Shown here: positions 2,515 to 40,895 of the stretch, piece by piece
Numbering within the stretch: the stretch's first letter is position 1
How the letters are laid out: every line of letters starts with the position of its first letter
DNA from: Cutaneotrichosporon cavernicola
Lineage: Eukaryota > Basidiomycota > Tremellomycetes > Trichosporonales > Trichosporonaceae
Assembly: GCF_030864355.1 (NCBI RefSeq)
Contig: NC_083399.1
Span: 62,001-126,000, forward strand
DNA: 64,000 nucleotides
Direction of reading: 5' to 3'
The notes under the pieces: model-generated
The model's database searches: none
The model's input: only the letters and a program-made list of their open reading frames with translations
Told to the model about the DNA's origin: nothing
Program-made: the position numbers and the translations under genes

Positions 2515-3676
2515 GTTGAGTTGGTCTGGTTGGGGATGGTTCAGCAAGAGAGTGGTAGCGCGAGTGTGGATAGTCAGGAGTGGAAGTAGCTCGCGGCCGA
2601 GGTGGTAGTAGTAGATGGAGAGTACGAGGTTTAAATGCTTGGCCAGAAACCAGTCAAGATGAGAGCAATCCTGCGTGGGGTTGAAGAGGGGATTGACAGT
2701 GTTACCACCCATGGAGTGGGATTGTCCGATATCGGTAGCAGTAGTCGTCGATTAGCAGGTCCTCGCTCTCTCTTTGCAGCGACAATGTGCGGCGCAAAGT
2801 TGCGGCGGTCAGCGATCCGAGCTTCCAATCAGTGTGGCTCACGAGACTGGGTAACATGCTGGCACCATCTTCTCCCAAATCAAGCAACGGATGATTGTTG
2901 GGTAAGGCGCGGCCTCTGACTTGCTAGGCAGTCGCAAAAGACACAGATATACGCCGAGCCATCACACCAGACGATCAACTTGTACTGTTCTGTCGTCAGC
3001 TCCATGGTGATGTCGCGGACTAAAGCTGTTCTTGTGGTTGTTGACCGGGTCACCTGAACAGATCCCGAAAAGGGAGAGGCGCCGCTGCTTGGCTGTTGTG
3101 TTTAGTGGTGGCGAGGTACCGGAATGCTTGAGAAGAGCAAGTTGATAAGGTTTCAGAGGACGTTTACATGAGCGGAAGGGACGGAGTGACAGAACCAAGA
3201 AGCATCGTTCGACCCCTTTGGCAAACAGAAGCTTCAGACTGCGAATCCACATCTCGTGGTGGGCACACTCTCAAAAACACCGGAAGCGTGCATCCGGCCG
3301 CTGGAATCTGCCAATATTCTACAGGTGGTCCTATCCTAGCACGGGTAGCTGTCGCAGCCTGAGACTGCAGCTTGAATTGTTGTAAGTACTCGGCATGATA
3401 AGCTTGAATTGTTATATTACTCGGCATGATAACCTGGTTCAAAAGGCGACAGGAGTCTCTCCACCTGTTTCCGTCTGTCGGACATCTGGCCATAGAGTGC
3501 GCATCATGATATACATTTTCTAGCGTTTCCTGGTAGACAAGGCCCGAGATCAACATTGTGGCTCGGTGCGAAGCGTGGTGGCGTAAGGTACTTATCACGC
3601 TCTACAATTGCTACGGATTTCTCGGCATTATCTACTCTGCCTTTTTTTCTGAACCACCCTTAGCGCCCTCCTCGCC
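2515..3676. other. intergenic, no gene supported
   Basis: No convincing coding region on either strand. The longest open frame, on the minus strand at 3164-3598, has no recognisable domain and no splice or start context. A 31-32 bp unit beginning AGCTTGAATTGTT is duplicated in tandem at 3369-3431. Confidence 0.5.
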
Positions 3677-3934
3677 TTACTCGTCTTCCTCATCGTCATC
3701 GTCGTCTCCACCATAGCTCACAACGTCGTCGTCGTGGCTGTATGATTCCTGGAACACGCAGCAGTAGTAGCAGATGTAGCGGTTCCACTCATCCTGGACC
3801 CAGAAGCATTCGTCTGGCGTCAGGTAGCCTTTGAAACACTCACAACCAGCATTCTCTCCGCCATCGTCACCATCGCAGCATCCACTGTTGTTGTAGATGC
3901 TGTCGTTACTACCATGGGTCACGGGATTGTACAT
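3677..3934 (-). CDS. tiny cysteine protein, family member 1
   Basis: Exon 1 is 3934-3844 and exon 2 is 3813-3677, joined across a 30-nt intron (3814-3843; GTGAGT donor, CTGAC branch, CCAG end). The product has 75 residues. It contains CCDGDDGG before the intron, then EC, eleven residues, and CYYCC, followed by an acidic tail ending DDDDDEEDE. The intron length is a multiple of three and free of stops, so the unspliced message would also read through. I favour splicing because all five relatives in the window have an intron at the same place and phase. There is no signal peptide or membrane segment. The four shared cysteines (CxGD, single Cys, CxxC) could hold one zinc ion; that is inference. 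Family unknown. Confidence 0.6.
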   Translation of the reverse strand: MYNPVTHGSNDSIYNNSGCCDGDDGGENAGCECFKGYLTPDECFWVQDEWNRYICYYCCVFQESYSHDDDVVSYGGDDDDDEEDE

Positions 3935-4211
3935 GCTTGCTTCTGAGGGAGGGACGATGGAGGAATGACAGGTCAAAAGAGATTTTCTCCAGGGGAATCT
4001 CTTCATGCTTCCCATCGTCAAGTGAACGCGGAGGATGTGATCCAGACCAGAGCTGGGTGTATGTGCTTGGGCATCGGTGAGAAGAATGGATGCCACTTTT
4101 CCGTCTCTCGCCAGCGACATCAGTCGTCCAAGCGACAATGAACTCTCCGCAACGAAATAATGACCATCACCTATCAAGCGGACCCTCAATGTCTAACCCT
4201 CCCAGTGCTCG

Positions 4212-4396
4212 CTACATCAGACACAAGCAGAAGTAGCACACGAGGTTGCCATCCTCATCCCAGGTTCCCTCACAATCGCCTGCGTGAGCAATGCCAGAAT
4301 GCCATTGTACTCACCAAAGCGGTTATTGCCGTCGTCGTCGCCTTCACACTCGCCGCTGAGGCTCAAGTTGCGCATGGTGTAGAGGTTGTCGAACAT
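4212..4396 (-). CDS. tiny cysteine protein, family member 2
   Basis: Exon 1 4396-4315, 35-nt intron 4280-4314 (GTGAGT donor, GCTCAC near the CGCAG end), exon 2 4279-4212; 49 residues. The product reads MFDNLYTMRN, then CEGDDDGNN, then after the phase-1 intron DC, eleven residues and CYFCLCLM at the C-terminus. The intron is not a multiple of three, so splicing is needed to join the two cysteine halves. Same strand and orientation as members 1 and 3-5. No targeting signal. Unknown function; a mini zinc-binding domain is a guess based only on Cys spacing. Confidence 0.65.
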
Positions 4397-5275
4397 TGTT
4401 CTGAATGGTTGAATGGAGAGATGATGAGCCCCAACCGTCTGAAATCGGTGCTTAAGTCTGCTTCGTCGGTAGTATCCTCATCGGCACTCAAGTTGTGTGC
4501 CAGATGATCCTCGCACCGCAGAACAACGGAATCGGCCGTCCCGCTCTCTCCTTGCCTCAATTTCGGCAGGCGATAACCGGTTAACAGGTGAGAAGTACTG
4601 TATCAAGTGACGACAAGAGGTTGTGCCCCGTCCTCGCTGACTTACTCAGGTGGAACCTAACCCCTTCTGTAGTTTACGGAATAATAGGTGTGCGATTTGA
4701 CAGTTCAGATGTAACGAGTCGCCCCTGCGTAGCACTAAAAGTAATGAGAGCGGCTGCTGCCGCCACATTGTACCGAGTCGCACGGCTCCACCTCTCGCAA
4801 CCTCCGGCTCTCAGTACTTCCCACTGCATATGGCTCGTCACCGCGACGGCCTACTCGCCACACCTGTGACTTCCCACCCAGTATTGGGTGAGTGGTGGCC
4901 AGGCTCGTATCCGTCTGTAAAAGGAATTGAAGAATGGGGCCGCTTCAGAATGCGCAGGGTGAGCATTCGGAAAATTCTTCTGGTGCGCAACCAAGGGCCT
5001 TGGTAGTGTGCCGACGAGTACATTGATTGTGCAGGCAGATCTGGGGTGTATGGAATGACCGCATGTGGGCGCGGTACATTGTCACCGCTGGGTCGGAAAG
5101 AGCGAGTAGCGGTGGCGCGCATAGACCTTGATCCCGTTGTCAGAGGTGGTTTGGACTGGAATACAGTTCAGATCACACTGGAATACAGCTCAAATCACAC
5201 TGGAATACAGTTCAGCCATGTCTTGATCAAGCCAGGCAGTCGGGTTCGGGTATTCCCCATGCATGTCGTATCAAA
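4397..5275. other. spacer between tiny cysteine genes
   Basis: No gene seen. A 22-bp unit beginning ACTGGAATACAGTTCA is repeated nearly three times at 5155-5214. Open frames here lack domains and splice context. Confidence 0.5.
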
Positions 5276-5467
5276 CTACGCCCAATCCTGTCCTCCCGAG
5301 TCATACCCGTGCGCGCAGTAGGCACAGACCTTCCACCCGCCGTACCAGATAAACATGCAGTGTTCTGAGTCAGCGCAGCTATCGGAAGGCTCACGGCCCT
5401 TGTTCCGCCCCGCGAGGTCGCCGCAGCAGATGACTTTGTGGCAGAGGACGTTCTCGCTGTCAGACAT
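5276..5467 (-). CDS. tiny cysteine protein, family member 3
   Basis: Exon 1 5467-5395, 30-nt intron 5365-5394 (GTGAGC donor, CTGAC branch, TCAG end), exon 2 5364-5276; 53 residues when spliced, 63 if the stop-free intron is kept. The N-terminal half is MSDSENVLCHKVICCGD followed by GRNKG. After the intron come HC, ten residues, then KVCAYCAHGY. It carries more cysteines in the first half than the other members. No signal peptide. The intron position and the terminal VCxYC motif tie it to the neighbours. Confidence 0.65.
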   Translation of the reverse strand: MSDSENVLCHKVICCGDLAGRNKGREPSDSCADSEHCMFIWYGGWKVCAYCAHGYDSGGQDWA

Positions 5468-5711
5468 TGTATTTGAAAGATGAGGTGGGAATGTATGGTC
5501 GATAAAGATGTTGGACGGGCATGCAGAATGCCTCTTATGCCAACCCCGCCTCCATCAGACTCGTTGCTTGTGTTGTATACTCGCTTTTCCATGCGTTTCG
5601 CTCTTCTTCGCACGCCTTCCCCATACTTTGTATCGTTTCAGACTGGATCACATCACACTTTCGCTACAGGAAGAGGAGGAGAATTCCTCCAGGAGGGGAT
5701 CACGCACTGTC

Positions 5712-5852
5712 CTAGCGCACGCGGCCGCAGTAGATGCAGACAAAGAGGTCGCCGAACGTGTTGTACACGCAGTTGTCTGGGGTTAGTACGTACTGTACTG
5801 AGGAAGACTCACTGCCGGTGTTGTTGCCGGTGCTGTCGCCAGAGCAGGCCAT
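5712..5852 (-). CDS. tiny cysteine protein, family member 4
   Basis: Exon 1 is 40 nt (5852-5813), the intron 36 nt (5777-5812; GTGAGT donor, TACTAAC branch, CCAG end) and exon 2 5776-5712; 34 residues. Exon 1 encodes MACSGDSTGNNTG. Exon 2 continues NNC, ten residues, then VCIYCGRVR. It is the smallest member and the closest relative of the copy at 40118-40323: both first exons are exactly 40 nt, 7 of 13 residues match, and both have C-[IV]-[YF]-CGRV. A perfect TACTAAC branch is strong support for splicing. Function unknown. Confidence 0.65.
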   Translation of the reverse strand: MACSGDSTGNNTGSESSSVQYVLTPDNCVYNTFGDLFVCIYCGRVR

Positions 5853-6255
5853 GGTTGTGTGAATCTGGTTGGTGAATGGAGATAATAGGAGGTTGGTGGG
5901 GAAAGAGATAAGCAGTATAGGTTAAAATATGGTTGCCGAGGTGGCGGACTGTGGAAACAATGGACAACGTCACATCGGCCTTGGTCATCACTCCCCCAAA
6001 ACCGTTAAACAACCCATGCGTGCGAAGTGAGATCGCTTCCGTTGTTCGCAACCCCACACCCTTGCATCCCCTGCAGCTGCTACTGCACTTGTTGAATTGC
6101 CGCTGTGCTGCTCCTCCGCATACTCCTCGCCATTCAGGATATTCGGAACATTGTGCCACTACTACACTGGGTCGCGACTTGAGCCCACACCCGTCCTGGC
6201 CCTCCGCGCAACCAGTATGATGAATAGATAGCTGAAACCTCACACATCTCCATAC
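5853..6255. other. spacer, nothing supported
   Basis: About 400 bases between members 4 and 5 without a supported gene or repeat. Confidence 0.5.
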
Positions 6256-6472
6256 CTAATCATCGGCGTACATCCCCCCGCAAACGCCACAGACCCACAC
6301 GTCCCCGTCCCAGGAGAGCTTGCACGGATCTGTCTCAGTGTTTTCAGAAACCACACTCACCGCCAAGATTGACCTCGTCCTCGTCGCCCTCGCAGATGGA
6401 AATGGCGTCCCCGTCTCCGCCGTAAGGATAGAGGTTGTCGTGATTCTTGGGGATGTGGTTGAGGCGGAGCAT
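6256..6472 (-). CDS. tiny cysteine protein, family member 5
   Basis: Exon 1 6472-6361, 31-nt intron 6330-6360 (GTGAGT donor, GACAG end), exon 2 6329-6256; 61 residues. The first exon has a longer leader and then CEGDEDEVNLG. The second gives DPC, ten residues ending DVWV, and CGVCGGMYADD. Reading through the intron hits a stop, so splicing is required. It is the first gene of the minus-strand array and lies 0.5 kb from the retrotransposon. No targeting signal. Unknown function. Confidence 0.65.
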
Positions 6473-7731: not shown

Positions 7732-10700
7732 ATGTCGGAACGCGACATGACCCCAGGCGACTCCGCCCGTCAGCGTCTCGTCGATCCCGACCCGCATACT
7801 CCCGCCGACGAGAACGTCCTTGTTCCTCGCTCGGAGCTTGACGACCTGAGGGCGCAGATCGCCGAGCTGAAGTCGCGCCGCGGTTCGAGAAACGGTTCCC
7901 GCCACCCTTCCTCGCGCCACGACTCCCGTCCACCTTCCTCTAGTCACGTTTCCCGTCCGCGTAGACCCGATATGGACGCCTGGCGACGTGAAGACGAGGA
8001 GCGCGCCCGCCGCCACCGTGAGGAGAACGAGCGCGTCGCCGAGAGCTGCCGCCAGTACGGCCGCACGGCCTCCCCTCGTCACCCTTCCCCCCGCCAGGCC
8101 CCGTACCTCACGCCCCCTCTGACGCCGCCAACTGACGATCCCTACAAACCCCGTCACCGCTTCACGCTGAAGCCCGGCGACTTCCCGAAGTTCAGCGCCA
8201 CTACCGACACGAACATCGACGACTGGATTACGACGGTCTCGATGATCCTCGACCAGACGGGCGTTGCCGACTTCGAAATTACGAGCCGTCTTCCCCTCGT
8301 CCTCACGGGCGCGGCGTCGAAGTGGTTCATCGGTCTGTCGCCAGAGGAACGCCGTAACCTCCGCACCTGGTCACAGTGGTGTGACCGTCTTCGTACCGCC
8401 TTCCGCCCCGCCGATTACGACCTTGTCCTCCGTGATCGCGCTCGTAACCGCGTGCTCCTGCCATCGGAGAACGTCTCGGATTACTTTTACGACAAAGTCC
8501 GTCTGCTACGCACGGCGTACCCGACCAACTCGGACCGCGAGCACGTCTATGACGTCCTTCTCGGTCTTCCTCAGCGCTTCCGCGCCCTTTGCCACATTGA
8601 CACGGACGTGCCCATCGACCAGCTCCACCGTAACCTTGTCGAGTACGCCGTTCTACTTCCCCGTGGGTACACTAACGGCGTCGCGCCGCCTGTCGCTGCT
8701 CACGCACGCACGTCGCATCACGTCGGCACAACCGTCGCCGCGACGAAACCTGCGCCCGCCTCCGGCGGCACGCCGGCGCTATCTGCGCCCCCTCCGGCAC
8801 CACCGGGAGCTCCGAAGCCGCCCGCCGCCCGTGCACCTCAACGCCCTTGTCGTTACTGCGGCGGATCTCACTGGGATCGTGAATGCCCGAACCCCAAGAA
8901 GGACGCCAACGTGAGCAGACCCGCCACTAACACGAACACGACGCCGCTCGGCCCTAGGCGCGAGGCCTTCTTCTCCGACGTCGCTACCGACGGCACCGTC
9001 GTCATCACAACTGAGGCTAGCGTCAACGCCGCCACTCCAAACCAGCGGTACAAGTACACGCCCTGTTACACCGCCATCTCCGTCAGTAACAAGCCCCACC
9101 GCGCCATCATCGATCCAGGCTCGGGCATTTCAATGGTCGCGAAAGAGTACGTCACATTCCACATGCCGTCGACACCGCTGCAGCCGTGCTCGTCGTTCCC
9201 AGTTCGTGGCGTCGGCTCCTCGGCGACAGTGTTCGGATTCGTCACCGTCCCTGTTACCTTCCCCGCCACCCCGCCATTCACAGTTAACGTCGATTTCTAC
9301 GCCACGACCGACGCTCCCGCCGGCCTCCTTCTCGGTAACGATTGTCTTGGGCGCCTCGGCGCCGTCGTCGATCTAGGACGGAGCCAGCTCACCGTCCATG
9401 GCAACGTCTTCCCCCTCTCGTATCTGGCTCCTGCCGCCCGCGCGCCGTTCTCCGCCGAACACGCCCAGGCGATTCGCACCCGTGAGTCGTTCAACGTCAC
9501 GGTCGAGGAAGACGTCGTCATCCGCCCCGGACACCGCGCCAGGGTCGCCATGAAAACAAGTGAGCACGCTGATTCACCGTTCCTCATCACTCCCGTTCCC
9601 ATGCACGGCAATGCCGGCCTTCCTTGCCAGACGCCGCATGCCGTCGCCGATTCCTCCTCGTTCACCGGCGAGCTCGTCAACCTTCACCACCAGCCCGTGC
9701 ATATCCGCCCTGGTGACGCCGTCGGTACCGCCTCCCTCATTCACACGCCGACCTCGACGTGCGTCGTGGAGACGTCTTCCCCCTCCGACCCGGATCAGAT
9801 CGACGTCAACCCAGATCTTACCGCCGAACAGCGTCACGCCGTCGACGACATGCTTCGCCACCGAATGCACGCGTTTTCCAGCAATAACTCCGTCGGCCGC
9901 ACCAACGTCGTCGAGTTCAACGTGGATACCGGTGAGCACCTCCCGATCAGCCAACCTCCCTATCACGCGTCTCCGCGTCAGCGCGTCGCGATCGACGCCG
10001 CTATTGACGGCCTCCTCGCCGCCGGCCACGCCTCTCCCTCCCATTCGCCGTGGGCCTCGCCTGTTCTCGTCGTCCAACAGCACGACAAGAAGCGCATGTG
10101 CGTGGACTACCGCCGGCTCAACAAGGTCACGAAGAGCGACCAGTATCCCCTCCCCCGTATCGACGACATTCTTTCTCAGTTCCAGGGCAAGATGTGGTTT
10201 TCAACGCTCGACGCCAACCGCGGGTACCACCAAGTGCCCGTCGCCGACGCCGACAAGAAGAAACTCGCCTTTCGCACCCACCGCGGCCTTTTTGAGCCCA
10301 CCGTCATGCCGTTCGGCGCCAAGGGGGTGCCCGCCACCTTCCAACGGATGATGGACGTTATCCTCGCCGCCGGCAAGTGGCAGTGGTGCCTCGCCTACCT
10401 TGATGACGTTATCATCTATTCCAAGACGTTCGAGCAGCACGTCGACAACGTCGCCTGGACACTCGACGCCATCGCCGCCGCCGGTCTTACTCTTGGTGCC
10501 GGTAAGTCGCATCTTTTCTACCAGTCGCTCGATTGCCTAGGTCACACCGTCTCCGCACTTGGTATCGGCATCATCGGCCGCAACGTCGACGCCATCCTCA
10601 AACAGGAGCCGCCCAAGACGCTCGCGGCACTCGAATGCTTCAGCGGTCTCGCGGGCCATTACCGTCGTTTCATTGAAAAGTTTTCCCTCGTCGCACGCCC

Positions 10701-12990
10701 CATCCACGACAAAATCAACACGTCGCGGAAGACGAAGGCGTATGACCTCGACGACGCCACTCTCACGGCCTTTCACGTCATCAAAAACCTCGTCGCCGAA
10801 CGTCCCCTCCTTGCCCACCCCGACTATTCCCTTGGTTTCCGCGTCGAGTCCGACGCCTGCCGCGACGGCTTTGGCGCCATCCTCTCACAGAAGGGCGCCG
10901 ATGGCATCGTACGTCCAATCGTGTTTCTATCCCGCGTCACCACCGCGCCGGAGAAAAACTATTCGGCGACGGAACTCGAATGCACGGCACTCACGTGGGC
11001 CCTTCGCCGCTTCCACCCGTACATTGACGGCGCCGAACTTGAGGCGATCACGGATCACGCCGCGCTTCAGTGGTTGCTGGATTATACCGGTCCTAACCAA
11101 CGTCTGGTACGTCAATCTCTCGCGCTACAGCCCTACCGCGACAAGCTCACGATCCGCCACCGCCCCGGCAAGAATCACGCGCACGTCGACCAGCTGTCGC
11201 GCGCCCCGCTTCCCATTACGACGTCTGACTTCGCCGTCGCTATGGCTGACGAGCCCGTCACGTCCTCCCCCGCCGACTCTGCCGCCGCCTTCCTCGCGTG
11301 GGCCGCGCCTGACGACCCTTCTCTCATCAAGGCGGTGAAGGAAGCGACGCCACAAGACGCCAAACTCGCGAAAATCATCGCCGAGTGCATCGCGCACGCC
11401 GCCAACAACGTCGCGACGGAACCCGCCGCCGTTCCCGACGCCACCACTCCCGTCGCGACGGAACCCGCCGCCGTTCCCGCCGCCACCACCCCCCTTCCTC
11501 ATCCACGTCTCCCCTTCACGACACAGGACGGTCTCGCATTCGTCCATCGTCCCTCCCTCGGTGCATACGCCCTATGCATTCCGACGGCATGCGACGAGAT
11601 CCGCGACAAGATTTTATTTGACTACCATGACACTCCCGTCTCGGGCCACCGCAGCGCCGACAAAACGTTCCTCGCGATCGCGCCGTACTACCACTGGCCG
11701 GGCATGAGGCGTTTCATTACAAAGTACGTCCAGACGTGTGACGCTTGCCAGAAACATAAGCCCGCCATCGCTACCACGTCGCCAATGCAGCCGCTGGCCA
11801 TTCCCACTACCCGTTGGCACACCGTTACCATGGACTTCGCCGTCGACCTCCCGGTTTCCAACGCCTTCAACGCCATCATGGTCGTCGTTGACAAATTCAC
11901 GAAACGTTGTCACCTCATCCCCACGCTTACCACGGCTACCGCGAAGGATACGGCCTTCCTCTTCCTCGCCAACATCGTCCGTCTGCACGGCATCCCCGTT
12001 CGCATTGTCTCGGACCGTGACCCGAAGTTCACGTCGGCCTTCTGGAAGGCAATCCACGCCGCCCTTGGAACGAAGCTTCTGCTTTCGACGGCCTTTCATC
12101 CACAGACCGATGGGCAGAGCGAACGGCAGGTGCGCACGCTGAAGGAAGCCCTCCGCCACTTCGTCAACGCCCGGCAGAACAACTGGTTCTATTTGCTGCT
12201 GCTTCTCGAGATCGCGTTCAACAGCAGCGTACACTCCTCCAGCAACGTCACGCCGTTCGAGCTTGACCTCGGCTTCCACCCGCGCTTCCTCAACCACCCG
12301 GCCTCCGTCGCGCATGACGACAAGGACGCCAGTGTGTTTATTGACGCCCTCAACGCCGCCACCGTCGACGCCGTCGAGTCGCTGCAACACGCGCAGGCCC
12401 GTCAAGCCGGTCAATACGACGCGCGCAACGTCAACCGCCGCCAAACCGAGTACAAGGTAGGCGACCAAGTTCTTCTCCGCTCCAGCCTCTTCAAGCCCGT
12501 CTTCTATCAAAAGTCGAAGAGCAAGCAGCTCGCCCCCACGTGGTTCGGTCCGTTTACCGTCACCTCCGTCGACGGCCCTACCGTCATCACAGTCGATCTA
12601 CCGCTGAACCTGAATATTCACAACCGCGTCAACACGATGAACGCGCGCAAGTATCTCGCCCGCGTCAAGGCCCACCCGTCGGCTGTGCGCGAGGTCGAGC
12701 AGATTCTTGGGCACCGCACAAGCATCCGCACGAACGCCTTCCCCGACGGCAAGCCGCAATGGTTGGTCCGCTTCAAGAACGCCCCGACCGGCGCCGAACA
12801 GTGGCTCGACCACGCTGAGCTCGTCTACTACGGAGGCGACGCCATCATCAATCCTTCTTCGGGCGAGGACGCCCTCAACCCGTCCGCGGGGGCACCTGCA
12901 GCCCTCGGCCCGCAGACTGCCCTGTCACGTGACATCACCGAGTCACGTGATGCCATACAGTCCGCCACACTTCCGCGCACTGATCTATAG
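7732..12990 (+). CDS. Gag-Pol polyprotein of chromovirus
   Basis: 1752 residues in a single frame with no frameshift between Gag and Pol. In order: Gag with an N-terminal helical region, a CCHC zinc knuckle (CRYCGGSHWDREC, about residues 373-385), aspartic protease with DPGS near 459 and LLLGND near 540, reverse transcriptase about 745-925 with the catalytic YLDD near 889, RNase H from about 1036, integrase with the HHCC region about 1297-1340 and the D, D, E core near 1366, 1426 and 1464, then a C-terminal chromodomain about 1654-1703 (VEQILGHR to WLDHAELVYY). The chromodomain places it among chromoviruses, which tend to insert at marked chromatin. The RT carries MPFGAKGVPATFQ where the family usually has MPFGLxNAPATFQ. 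All catalytic residues are present. Confidence 0.93.
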   Translation: MSERDMTPGDSARQRLVDPDPHTPADENVLVPRSELDDLRAQIAELKSRRGSRNGSRHPSSRHDSRPPSSSHVSRPRRPDMDAWRREDEERARRHREENERVAESCRQYGRTASPRHPSPRQAPYLTPPLTPPTDDPYKPRHRFTLKPGDFPKFSATTDTNIDDWITTVSMILDQTGVADFEITSRLPLVLTGAASKWFIGLSPEERRNLRTWSQWCDRLRTAFRPADYDLVLRDRARNRVLLPSENVSDYFYDKVRLLRTAYPTNSDREHVYDVLLGLPQRFRALCHIDTDVPIDQLHRNLVEYAVLLPRGYTNGVAPPVAAHARTSHHVGTTVAATKPAPASGGTPALSAPPPAPPGAPKPPAARAPQRPCRYCGGSHWDRECPNPKKDANVSRPATNTNTTPLGPRREAFFSDVATDGTVVITTEASVNAATPNQRYKYTPCYTAISVSNKPHRAIIDPGSGISMVAKEYVTFHMPSTPLQPCSSFPVRGVGSSATVFGFVTVPVTFPATPPFTVNVDFYATTDAPAGLLLGNDCLGRLGAVVDLGRSQLTVHGNVFPLSYLAPAARAPFSAEHAQAIRTRESFNVTVEEDVVIRPGHRARVAMKTSEHADSPFLITPVPMHGNAGLPCQTPHAVADSSSFTGELVNLHHQPVHIRPGDAVGTASLIHTPTSTCVVETSSPSDPDQIDVNPDLTAEQRHAVDDMLRHRMHAFSSNNSVGRTNVVEFNVDTGEHLPISQPPYHASPRQRVAIDAAIDGLLAAGHASPSHSPWASPVLVVQQHDKKRMCVDYRRLNKVTKSDQYPLPRIDDILSQFQGKMWFSTLDANRGYHQVPVADADKKKLAFRTHRGLFEPTVMPFGAKGVPATFQRMMDVILAAGKWQWCLAYLDDVIIYSKTFEQHVDNVAWTLDAIAAAGLTLGAGKSHLFYQSLDCLGHTVSALGIGIIGRNVDAILKQEPPKTLAALECFSGLAGHYRRFIEKFSLVARPIHDKINTSRKTKAYDLDDATLTAFHVIKNLVAERPLLAHPDYSLGFRVESDACRDGFGAILSQKGADGIVRPIVFLSRVTTAPEKNYSATELECTALTWALRRFHPYIDGAELEAITDHAALQWLLDYTGPNQRLVRQSLALQPYRDKLTIRHRPGKNHAHVDQLSRAPLPITTSDFAVAMADEPVTSSPADSAAAFLAWAAPDDPSLIKAVKEATPQDAKLAKIIAECIAHAANNVATEPAAVPDATTPVATEPAAVPAATTPLPHPRLPFTTQDGLAFVHRPSLGAYALCIPTACDEIRDKILFDYHDTPVSGHRSADKTFLAIAPYYHWPGMRRFITKYVQTCDACQKHKPAIATTSPMQPLAIPTTRWHTVTMDFAVDLPVSNAFNAIMVVVDKFTKRCHLIPTLTTATAKDTAFLFLANIVRLHGIPVRIVSDRDPKFTSAFWKAIHAALGTKLLLSTAFHPQTDGQSERQVRTLKEALRHFVNARQNNWFYLLLLLEIAFNSSVHSSSNVTPFELDLGFHPRFLNHPASVAHDDKDASVFIDALNAATVDAVESLQHAQARQAGQYDARNVNRRQTEYKVGDQVLLRSSLFKPVFYQKSKSKQLAPTWFGPFTVTSVDGPTVITVDLPLNLNIHNRVNTMNARKYLARVKAHPSAVREVEQILGHRTSIRTNAFPDGKPQWLVRFKNAPTGAEQWLDHAELVYYGGDAIINPSSGEDALNPSAGAPAALGPQTALSRDITESRDAIQSATLPRTDL

Positions 12991-37369: not shown

Positions 37370-39227
37370 ATGTCGGCTGGCAACTCCGGCCTCCGTCGGC
37401 GCAAGCCCGCCGTCCGTGCCAAACCCTACGGTGTCCTTCACCCTCGTCAGAGCCCTGGCGCCAGTGAATCGGGCGGCGGCGGCGGAACGACTGAAGCTCC
37501 ACCGCCGACATCAGAGGCGCCACCACCGGCAACGTCCGAACCCCCTCGTAAGTCGCATCCCCAGTCTTGTAGCCGCAGCGCGCGGAAAGATTCCCACTTA
37601 CGCATCTCTTTCTTTGCGTGGTCCTGACAGCCGCCTCAACCCCACCGCCATCCACTCCTACCACTACTCCGGACCCTCCCCCTTCCTCCAACCCTCCTCC
37701 CGCGACTTCGAACCCCCCAGCCTCCACCACCGCCGAACCGCCCACTACCGAGCAGCCGCCGCCCACGACTGTCCAGCCCCCGACGTCCGACCCCCCTCCC
37801 CCTACCTCCCAGGCCCCGCCTACTACTCAAGCTCCTCCCACCACCGCCGCTCCGCCTACGAATCCTGCCCCTGGCACCACGGCCAACCCCGACCCTACCC
37901 AGAACCCTGGGTCCTCTAATAATGGTGGTACTACCGTCCAGTCTACACTTGTTGTGACGGTTGACCCGACCCCGTCGGCGGTCCTGCCTGGTGAAACCGT
38001 CACCAACGCTCCGTGAGTACACTGCATATCCTTGGCCTGGCAACGTCAATTTTCAAATCTCCCTTGGCGGAGTTGCAATCCCGCTGTCACGCCCCTCAGC
38101 TAAATTGGCACCTGCCGAGGCACACTCCTTGATTTCCTCCCTGCCCTGTATATGGCTGGTTTGCTAACGCGCTCCTCAGTCCGCCGCAGCAGTCCACGTC
38201 CACGGTCATTGTTCCTGGGCCCGATCAGACGCAGCCGCAGCAGTCGACGCGCATAACCTGGGTATCAGACCCGAACCCTCCGGGCTTGCTTACGAGCGCA
38301 CCCGAAACGACTGCGACATCGGCAGTGAAGATTACCACCACAGATTCCAAGGGCAACGTCTACACGACAATCCCCGCGTCCTTCACCTCGACAGGTGTTG
38401 TCACTTCGGGCGGCGCCGTGTTCACGGTCACACGTGTTGTACACAACCCGTCAGGCGCCCTAGATGCTGGTTCGTTGTCAGGCGGGTCGTCTTCCTTCTT
38501 CAACAACAAGGGCGCGGTTGCGGGCGTGTTCGTCATTGTTGGTCTTGCGGTCGTAACTATCCTTGCGGCACTCGGATTCATCTTCTTCCGGAAACGCCGT
38601 CGTCAGCGTCTCGACCGCGAGGTAACCGCTGCTGCTGTCGCTGCTTCGGCCGCGGCGGGTCGCTCCCCGCTGGACGAGGAAGGTGACATTGCGTCGTCCC
38701 ACCCGACGTCCGAGTCGTACCCCTCGACCATGTCTGCGCCAATGCAGCAGTACAACACGTACGCGACCACCTACGGCAACGGTGGCGGTTATGACCCATT
38801 CGCGCTCCAGAGCGACGGTGGTGCCCATGCGACTGGAGCCGTGGGCGGTGCTGCCGGTGCTGCTGCCGGTGCTGCTGCGTACGGCGCGTATGCGACCGAC
38901 TTCTCGGATGGCCGTTACCACGACGCTCCAGACGGCCGGTACGGCGATGACGGACCGTTCCACGACGCAAACGAGTATGTCAGCGACGGCCAACACCATG
39001 GCTACGACGGCATGGAACAGGGCGCCCAGGGCTATTACTACGACCCTTACTATGACGAGGACGTTACAGGCGGCCATGGCAATCAGCCGTACCCACAGCA
39101 CAACTACAACGAGGACCTGTACGGCACGTACTCTGGCGGCGAAGAGAGCATCGGCACTCCGACCCACGAACGTACCGACCCTTTACACGTTGCGAACCCG
39201 ACCCACCCTCCGCCGCCGAGGCAGTGA
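37370..39227 (+). CDS. single-pass Pro/Thr-rich membrane protein
   Basis: Exons 37370-37547, 37631-38012 and 38180-39227; 535 residues, introns 83 and 167 nt. Residues ~40-190 are Pro/Thr/Ser-rich with repeated PPTT and TTxAPP motifs and are likely O-glycosylated. A Thr-rich domain follows (TTTDSKGNVYTTIPASFTST). One transmembrane helix, about 297-318 (GVFVIVGLAVVTILAALGFI), leads to the basic anchor FFRKRRRQR and a ~210-residue cytosolic tail rich in Gly, Tyr, Asp and Ala. There is no obvious N-terminal signal peptide; the protein begins MSAGNSGLRRRKP. The layout is like fungal cell-wall stress sensors or Mid2-type proteins but without a recognisable sensor domain. Function unknown. Confidence 0.8.
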
Positions 39228-40117: not shown

Positions 40118-40323
40118 ATGCCCTGTACTGGCGACGAGCACGGTTCCAACGCTGGCAGTGAGGGTCCCCATCCCCCTTCCTACATAGCGCGCTAACAGAG
40201 ACTCCCCCATCCCCCTTCCTACATAGCGCACTGACACCAGGCTTCTGCCTCTGGAGATTTACGAGGGTTTGGACGTGCGTATTCTGTGGTCGCGTGCCGC
40301 CGGACAAGTGGAACGAGGCCTGA
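40118..40323 (+). CDS. tiny cysteine protein, family member 6 (distal copy)
   Basis: Exon 1 40118-40157 (40 nt), intron 40158-40240 (83 nt, GTGAGG donor, CTGAC branch, CCAG end), exon 2 40241-40323; 40 residues. Exon 1 gives MPCTGDEHGSNAG. Exon 2 gives SFC, nine residues ending VWT, then CVFCGRVPPDKWNEA. It has the same phase-1 intron position and the same C-x-G-D ... C ... CxxC pattern as the minus-strand array 34 kb away, and is closest to member 4. The intron contains a direct duplication of about 40 nt. No targeting signal. Function unknown. Confidence 0.65.
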
Positions 40324-40421: not shown

Positions 40422-40748
40422 ACGGTTGGGACAATATACTGACCTTTGGCAACGCGTCGAACCGGGCGGTATGGAATGGATGGCTGGCACGGACTCGTCA
40501 GTGAAGAGTGAAAACAAACATGTCCTGCAGCCATGTGTTGTACATGTGCTTTCCAAATCCGTTCGGTCCACGTCCAACACCATACCGATTCCCACCGCGA
40601 GGCTTCCCAGGCCGCCCCCAGTCCGCTCCCATTCAACCCCTCCAGCCCATATTCTGTAATGTAGCATAGCGCCGGTACCTCCCGAACGGAACGGCCTCTC
40701 TGTCCTCAGGTACTGTCACCCGTGTTTCCCATCCCCTCTTGACGAGCT

Positions 40749-40895
40749 GGTGACGACGACGGCAAGAACTACGACCGTAAGTACACGCTTGGATGCTCAT
40801 AGTAGAATAGCTTGGCGTGGGATAAGGATGACTGCACCCACTACTGTGTTTTCTGCCAGGAGACATATGTTGTAAGTGACCTAGCGGGAATGTGA
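40749..40895 (+). pseudogene. decayed tiny cysteine gene, member 7
   Basis: GDDDGKNYD followed by a GTAAGT donor, then about 40 bases on WDKDDCTHYCVFCQETYV and a stop. This looks like the two halves of a family member. However, the frame of the first half has a TGA just upstream and no ATG. The cysteine expected after the intron reads AGC (Ser). The available acceptors do not restore the phase-1 join. A second possible donor (GTAAGT at 40872) could extend it. I read it as a relic, but an unrecognised exon arrangement is possible. Confidence 0.35.

Follow-up and report, generated by a model that had tools for sequence, protein, structure and literature searches.

The window, a 64,000-nucleotide stretch of Cutaneotrichosporon cavernicola DNA, holds at 3677–6472 a run of very short, intron-split reading frames with a few regularly placed cysteines. 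Are these frames a true gene family and, if so, what kind of protein would they encode? The original prediction described five minus-strand genes of 34–75 residues at this place, and re-splicing gave the same coordinates, strand, and sizes (genes A–E). The family extends beyond this array, with two further members, F and G, lying outside. There are at least seven intact members (A–G), which span about 41 kb of contig C7. In the following list, which includes two possible decayed copies (H and I), positions are those of the window unless given on C7.

Gene A, 3677..3934 (−): exon 1 3844–3934, intron 3814–3843 (30 nt), exon 2 3677–3813; 75 residues, 6 Cys, acidic tail; held-out profile E 7.1e-5
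Gene B, 4212..4396 (−): exon 1 4315–4396, intron 4280–4314 (35 nt), exon 2 4212–4279; 49 residues, 5 Cys; held-out profile E 1.4e-3
Gene C, 5276..5467 (−): exon 1 5395–5467, intron 5365–5394 (30 nt), exon 2 5276–5364; 53 residues, 6 Cys; held-out profile E 2.3e-6
Gene D, 5712..5852 (−): exon 1 5813–5852, intron 5777–5812 (36 nt, containing TACTAAC), exon 2 5712–5776; 34 residues, 4 Cys; held-out profile E 1.1e-9
Gene E, 6256..6472 (−): exon 1 6361–6472, intron 6330–6360 (31 nt), exon 2 6256–6329; 61 residues, 4 Cys; held-out profile E 5.7e-5
Gene F, 40118..40323 (+): exon 1 40118–40157, intron 40158–40240 (83 nt), exon 2 40241–40323; 40 residues, 4 Cys; A–E profile E 1.2e-8
Gene G, C7:61485–61654 (+), about 0.35–0.5 kb left of the window: donor GTATGT; A–E profile E 3.1e-6
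Possible decayed copy H, 2880..3060 (−): exon-1-like CSGDPVNNHKN (found by eye) and exon-2-like WCDGSAYICVFC
Possible decayed copy I, 40743..40892 (+): exon-1-like GDDDGKN, then exon-2-like WDKDDCTHYCVFC

The start codon of gene A is uncertain because its frame is open upstream. The array has as neighbors an MFS transporter gene and, directly beside it, a retrotransposon-like uninterrupted frame of 1,752 codons at 7732–12990 (+), which has the look of a gag-pol retrotransposon.

A shared cysteine core and the evidence for a family

The members share the core C-x-G-D-x4-N-x4-C-x(9-12)-C-x2-C, with a phase-1 intron between the Asn and the second Cys. The spacing of C-x-G-D-x4-N-x4-C is identical in seven of seven members, and the gap between the second and third Cys is 9–12 residues. 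In the array, exon 1 stops just past the C-x-G-D-x4-N block, and exon 2 supplies one Cys, 10 or 11 residues, and C-x2-C; all five introns are of phase 1, as had been predicted. Two details of the predicted design needed amendment. The gap of 10–11 residues is right for A–E but too narrow for the seven members together, and the ending C-x-[YV]-C fits the other array genes but not B (CYFC), so that it reads C-x-[YFV]-C. The core starts early in D and F, with its first Cys at residue 3, and in G, where this Cys is residue 8; the N-termini of A, B, C, and E are longer. The total number of Cys is four in four members, six in A and C, and five in B, and the net charge ranges from 0 to −20 (A −20, E −10, and B −9, with C, D, F, and G near neutral).

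The proposal that the family is old and diversifying agreed with the nucleotide comparisons, since blastn between members gave only a weak 36-nt match between D and G (E about 0.02). Within the core block, base identity was 38% in the non-invariant codons and 65% at the third bases of the invariant codons. This low identity around a kept core suggests that the duplications are old and that the protein core has been under selection. The frames also carry a coding signature, with a GC content of 0.68–0.94 at third codon positions (GC3) versus 0.43–0.54 at positions 1 and 2. As for shared upstream words, the best (three of seven genes, p about 3e-5 to 4e-5) failed against the 1,427–1,903 words tested per length.

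Motif scans and profile searches were carried out on up to 286 kb of DNA (C7:1–276000 and C7:572501–582500, window included), about 1.4% of 20.2 Mb. In the 64 kb, the two-exon motif, for which introns of at most 75 nt were allowed so that F with its 83-nt intron is missed, matched five times, always in the A–E cluster, compared with 0–2 matches in each of ten first-order Markov shuffles. In 264 kb (the window and 200 kb of flanks), the exon-1 motif alone (C-x-G-[DE] near a phase-1 donor, with an in-frame Met) gave six matches, all in the family, and the exon-2 motif alone gave six, five of them in the family and one other at position 239. The exon-2 scan misses F by its spacing, and the exon-1 scan of three further stretches misses G by its donor rule. 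The loose pattern C-x-G-[DEN]-x4-N, without a splice rule, matched nine times in 286 kb, and seven of these are the family.

A profile of A–E was then searched against 1,679 spliced mini-ORFs with at least four Cys from the 286 kb, a set that includes alternative splicings of one locus and hence non-independent candidates. It recovered F and G at the E values listed above, the best unrelated candidate reaching 0.53; F and G had first been spotted through motifs taken from A–E, before the profile test. When each member was held out in turn, all seven were recognized (E 1.1e-9 to 1.4e-3), and among the best 25 matches of each run none outside the family loci fell below E 0.085. On these sequence comparisons, the microprotein family is very probably genuine. 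That short frames, chance or non-coding, merely imitate a family would suit genes of such small size, but it is extremely unlikely given the recognition of every held-out member, the excess of motif matches over the shuffles, and the GC3 signature.

In each of H and I, an exon-1-like and an exon-2-like piece stand in the right order, with profile scores below the threshold. The exon 2 of H scores E 0.15, and this copy has no nearby start, a poor donor, and a displaced second Cys. Copy I scores E 0.25 and 1.7; its first Cys and start are missing, and its frames do not join. Both are possible decayed copies of the family, on evidence that is weak. Together with the local clustering, they suggest gene birth and death. 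A stretch after G that resembles another copy was not convincingly matched to G by blastn and is not claimed, and a 24-nt match of D at 38851–38874 was dropped because it sits in an Ala/Gly-rich stretch.

Very short predicted introns and the published annotation

The array introns begin with GTGAGT or GTGAGC and measure 30–36 nt, and introns with a mode of 33–36 nt are short for a fungus. We considered how frequent intron-like signals (donor, CTRAY, and acceptor) of each length are in the 286 kb. The excess over the Markov expectation was greatest at 29–40 nt with a mode of 33–36 nt: 23 signals versus 4.8 expected at 29–32 nt, 40 versus 6.7 at 33–36 nt, and 23 versus 6.8 at 37–40 nt. Smaller excesses were found at 41–44 nt (14 versus 6.8), 49–56 nt (25 versus 11.1), and 91–110 nt (39 versus 25.2). 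This peak makes introns of about 30 nt credible in the C. cavernicola genome. The NDUFS6 gene of the same genome has a 35-nt intron, GTGAG...CTGAC...CAG, near its C-terminus (L031 1575–1609, contig C4, match 2472610–2472681). With this intron removed the protein ends in ...RTCGYCGARYEQEHHH, which we take to be the usual kind of NDUFS6 ending.

The family introns differ in how readily they can be read. The scan saw no CTRAY branch site in the introns of B and E. In A, C, and D the intron has a length divisible by three and no stop, which leaves the unspliced forms open as well; the case for splicing in these three thus comes from their homology to the introns of the other four members (B, E, F, and G). 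The F intron consists of two similar halves, as if a 41-nt intron had been duplicated in tandem, and splicing at the inner acceptor, at 41 nt, would keep the frame too, giving two in-frame acceptors.

Among 5.8 billion proteins, the only relative was P0001 (CcaverHIS002_0700280), a hypothetical protein from C. cavernicola HIS002 that has 72 residues and occurs on three contigs, and none was found outside C. cavernicola. P0001 equals exon 1 of B followed by exon 2 of A, letter for letter, with a 501-nt intron at 3814–4314 by coordinates. Its gene model is probably a false chimera of two neighboring genes. The prediction that these genes are too short and too split for gene finders was partly right: a model does exist here but joins exons of two genes. 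Augustus has an intron-length floor near 39 nt. The C. cavernicola assemblies are described as having 7 or 8 nuclear contigs that make up 20.2 Mb, with genes predicted by BRAKER using GeneMark, Augustus, and RNA-seq hints, and the sequencing reads of that project carry the accessions DRA016334 to DRA016337 (PMC10568926).

The protein search detects only annotated proteins that have five-letter words in common with the query, and its outcome is thus no proof of absence elsewhere. Used as protein queries against the genome, B, E, C, F, D, and G each returned the query gene only, and a made-up consensus recovered the second exons of E and D. Since no member retrieved another, the outcome is a poor guide to the remaining genome. 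In agreement with the claim that no described family has this layout, Pfam, NCBIfam, and PADLOC gave no convincing match, and titles and abstract openings in the literature yielded nothing on this four-Cys microprotein family.

An intron mode this short means that public annotation may miss many introns. The gene class seems to be badly handled by annotation, with intron-like signals that peak near 34 nt and two microprotein genes databased as one, probably false, chimera; if the same were true in related yeasts, many small intron-split genes would be missing from public proteomes.

A putative zinc site and the competing explanations

The explanation to which we give an even chance is that of an intracellular microprotein family in which one zinc-type four-Cys site makes the fold, multiplied by local duplication and loss. 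The open spliced frames, the shared core, the family membership, the clustering, and the frequency of intron-like signals of such size are observed, and we infer that the genes are expressed and spliced and that their products bind zinc, lie inside the cell, and bind partners. In the proposed mechanism, the four Cys would hold one Zn2+: C-x2-C would act as a knuckle, a Gly/Asp/Asn turn would carry the first Cys, and the stretch from the second Cys to the third would form a short hairpin. The zinc site would give the fold and the variable residues would form binding surfaces. Paralogues built in this way could serve inside the cell as binding or regulatory modules, each with partners of its own, and diversify fast, and the array would have grown by local duplication, divergence, and probably decay.

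As judged from the sequences, a single zinc site is plausible. The C-x2-C is usually preceded by a hydrophobic or aromatic residue and resembles a rubredoxin knuckle. An AlphaFold model of the chimeric P0001 (seven rows) was of low confidence (mean pLDDT 52, pTM 0.31), and its strands at 32–34 and 40–42, which span the second to the third Cys, are a weak hint in favor of the proposal. As a counterpoint, the first and second Cys lie 12 residues apart and are not a knuckle, and the six Cys of A and C and the five of B would allow other pairings. The absence of signal peptides that had been claimed was consistent with Kyte–Doolittle hydropathy, the sole measure here, and for gene A it is subject to the uncertain start; the most hydrophobic 11-residue window was N-terminal in C alone and modest there (mean 1.2). 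The net charges and the lack of a strongly hydrophobic N-terminus favor an intracellular place without proving it.

The proteins might instead be exported by a route that needs no classical signal peptide, with two or three disulfides to stabilize them as in other small secreted cysteine proteins, in which fast divergence around fixed Cys is typical. Such divergence is seen in this family, and the four members with four Cys and the two with six have numbers that allow full pairing. This is nevertheless unlikely, because the hydropathy plots give no strongly hydrophobic N-terminus, B has an odd five Cys, and the CxxC resembles a metal knuckle.

Alternatively, the products could be metal-buffering or redox peptides, whose Cys exchange metal or electrons and hold no static fold. 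A CxxC pair, often in acidic surroundings, and the negative charges of A, E, and B would suit such a role. Each protein has only four to six Cys, however, and C, D, F, and G are near neutral; furthermore, a buffer would presumably have no need of the conserved G, D, and N or of exact spacing, and we regard the role as improbable.

A further reading, which we consider very improbable, takes the array as combinatorial. Because a phase-1 intron occupies one and the same position in every gene, splicing an exon 1 to the exon 2 of any gene farther downstream in the array keeps the reading frame. Transcripts that run through several genes would in this way yield chimeric microproteins, P0001 would be a real product, and the array would generate a variety of zinc modules, whose targets might be intracellular elements, for instance the adjoining retrotransposon-like frame.

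In the favored explanation, by which each gene encodes its own zinc-type microprotein, seven natural variants on one four-Cys frame offer a compact system for studying microprotein diversification around a probable metal site.

Comparison with known proteins

The top solved match of the family profile was the knuckle of rubredoxin (E 0.0022 and 0.0042), of the type seen in PDB 2pvx and 1bq8, which shares wVC-x2-CG followed by an aromatic residue. These matches cover only 12–17 positions (about profile positions 21 to 33 of 34), and longer alignments to other rubredoxins had E values of 1.3 or worse. Rubredoxin has two C-x2-C knuckles that form one M(Cys)4 site, whereas the family has one core C-x2-C and two Cys 12 residues apart (C-x12-C-x(9-12)-C-x2-C in seven of seven). 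With one knuckle and no whole-domain similarity, membership in rubredoxins or rubredoxin-like zinc ribbons was rejected; the knuckle alone is in common.

The zf-CHCC domain of NDUFS6 (PF10276) ends in CxYCG like the family, and a five-member profile gave weak PDB matches to it (E 0.34–1.2). This domain starts with C-D-G-G, has an overall spacing similar to that of the family, and uses Cys-His-Cys-Cys as ligands, but the second ligand position is Cys, not His, in seven of seven members. No Pfam match to PF10276 appeared at E values up to 10, either with five members or with seven, some trimmed to the core. Kinship was rejected because the PDB matches vanish with the core profile and the NDUFS6 fragment of C. 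cavernicola itself aligns over 13 columns around CxYC only.

Other weak matches were set aside: the disulfide domain of MIC2 (8j64_B, E 0.34 and 0.017) as noise, and PtuB (one member, E 0.021), as well as the Sec23/24 zinc finger, DUF7815, and CEL_III_C (one member each, E 0.055–0.25), as noise or generic knuckles. Fungal metallothioneins are high in Cys and carry repeated CxC/CxxC clusters, and the family, with four to six Cys in 34–75 residues and one core CxxC, does not belong with them.

By published description, a parallel to the proposed mode of action is offered by the zinc-finger micro-proteins of Haloferax volcanii (PMC11241148, PMC10716476), which have fewer than 70 residues and consist of little more than a single predicted four-Cys zinc site. 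They are compared here as analogues in how the family may work; they are archaeal and built on two C(P)XCG knuckles, and several of them do not bind zinc, according to the title of one report (PMC11241148). Absent from curated libraries, the present family appears ordinary in kind, as one of small lineage-restricted cysteine proteins, and unusual in the size of its genes and in its fixed spacing.
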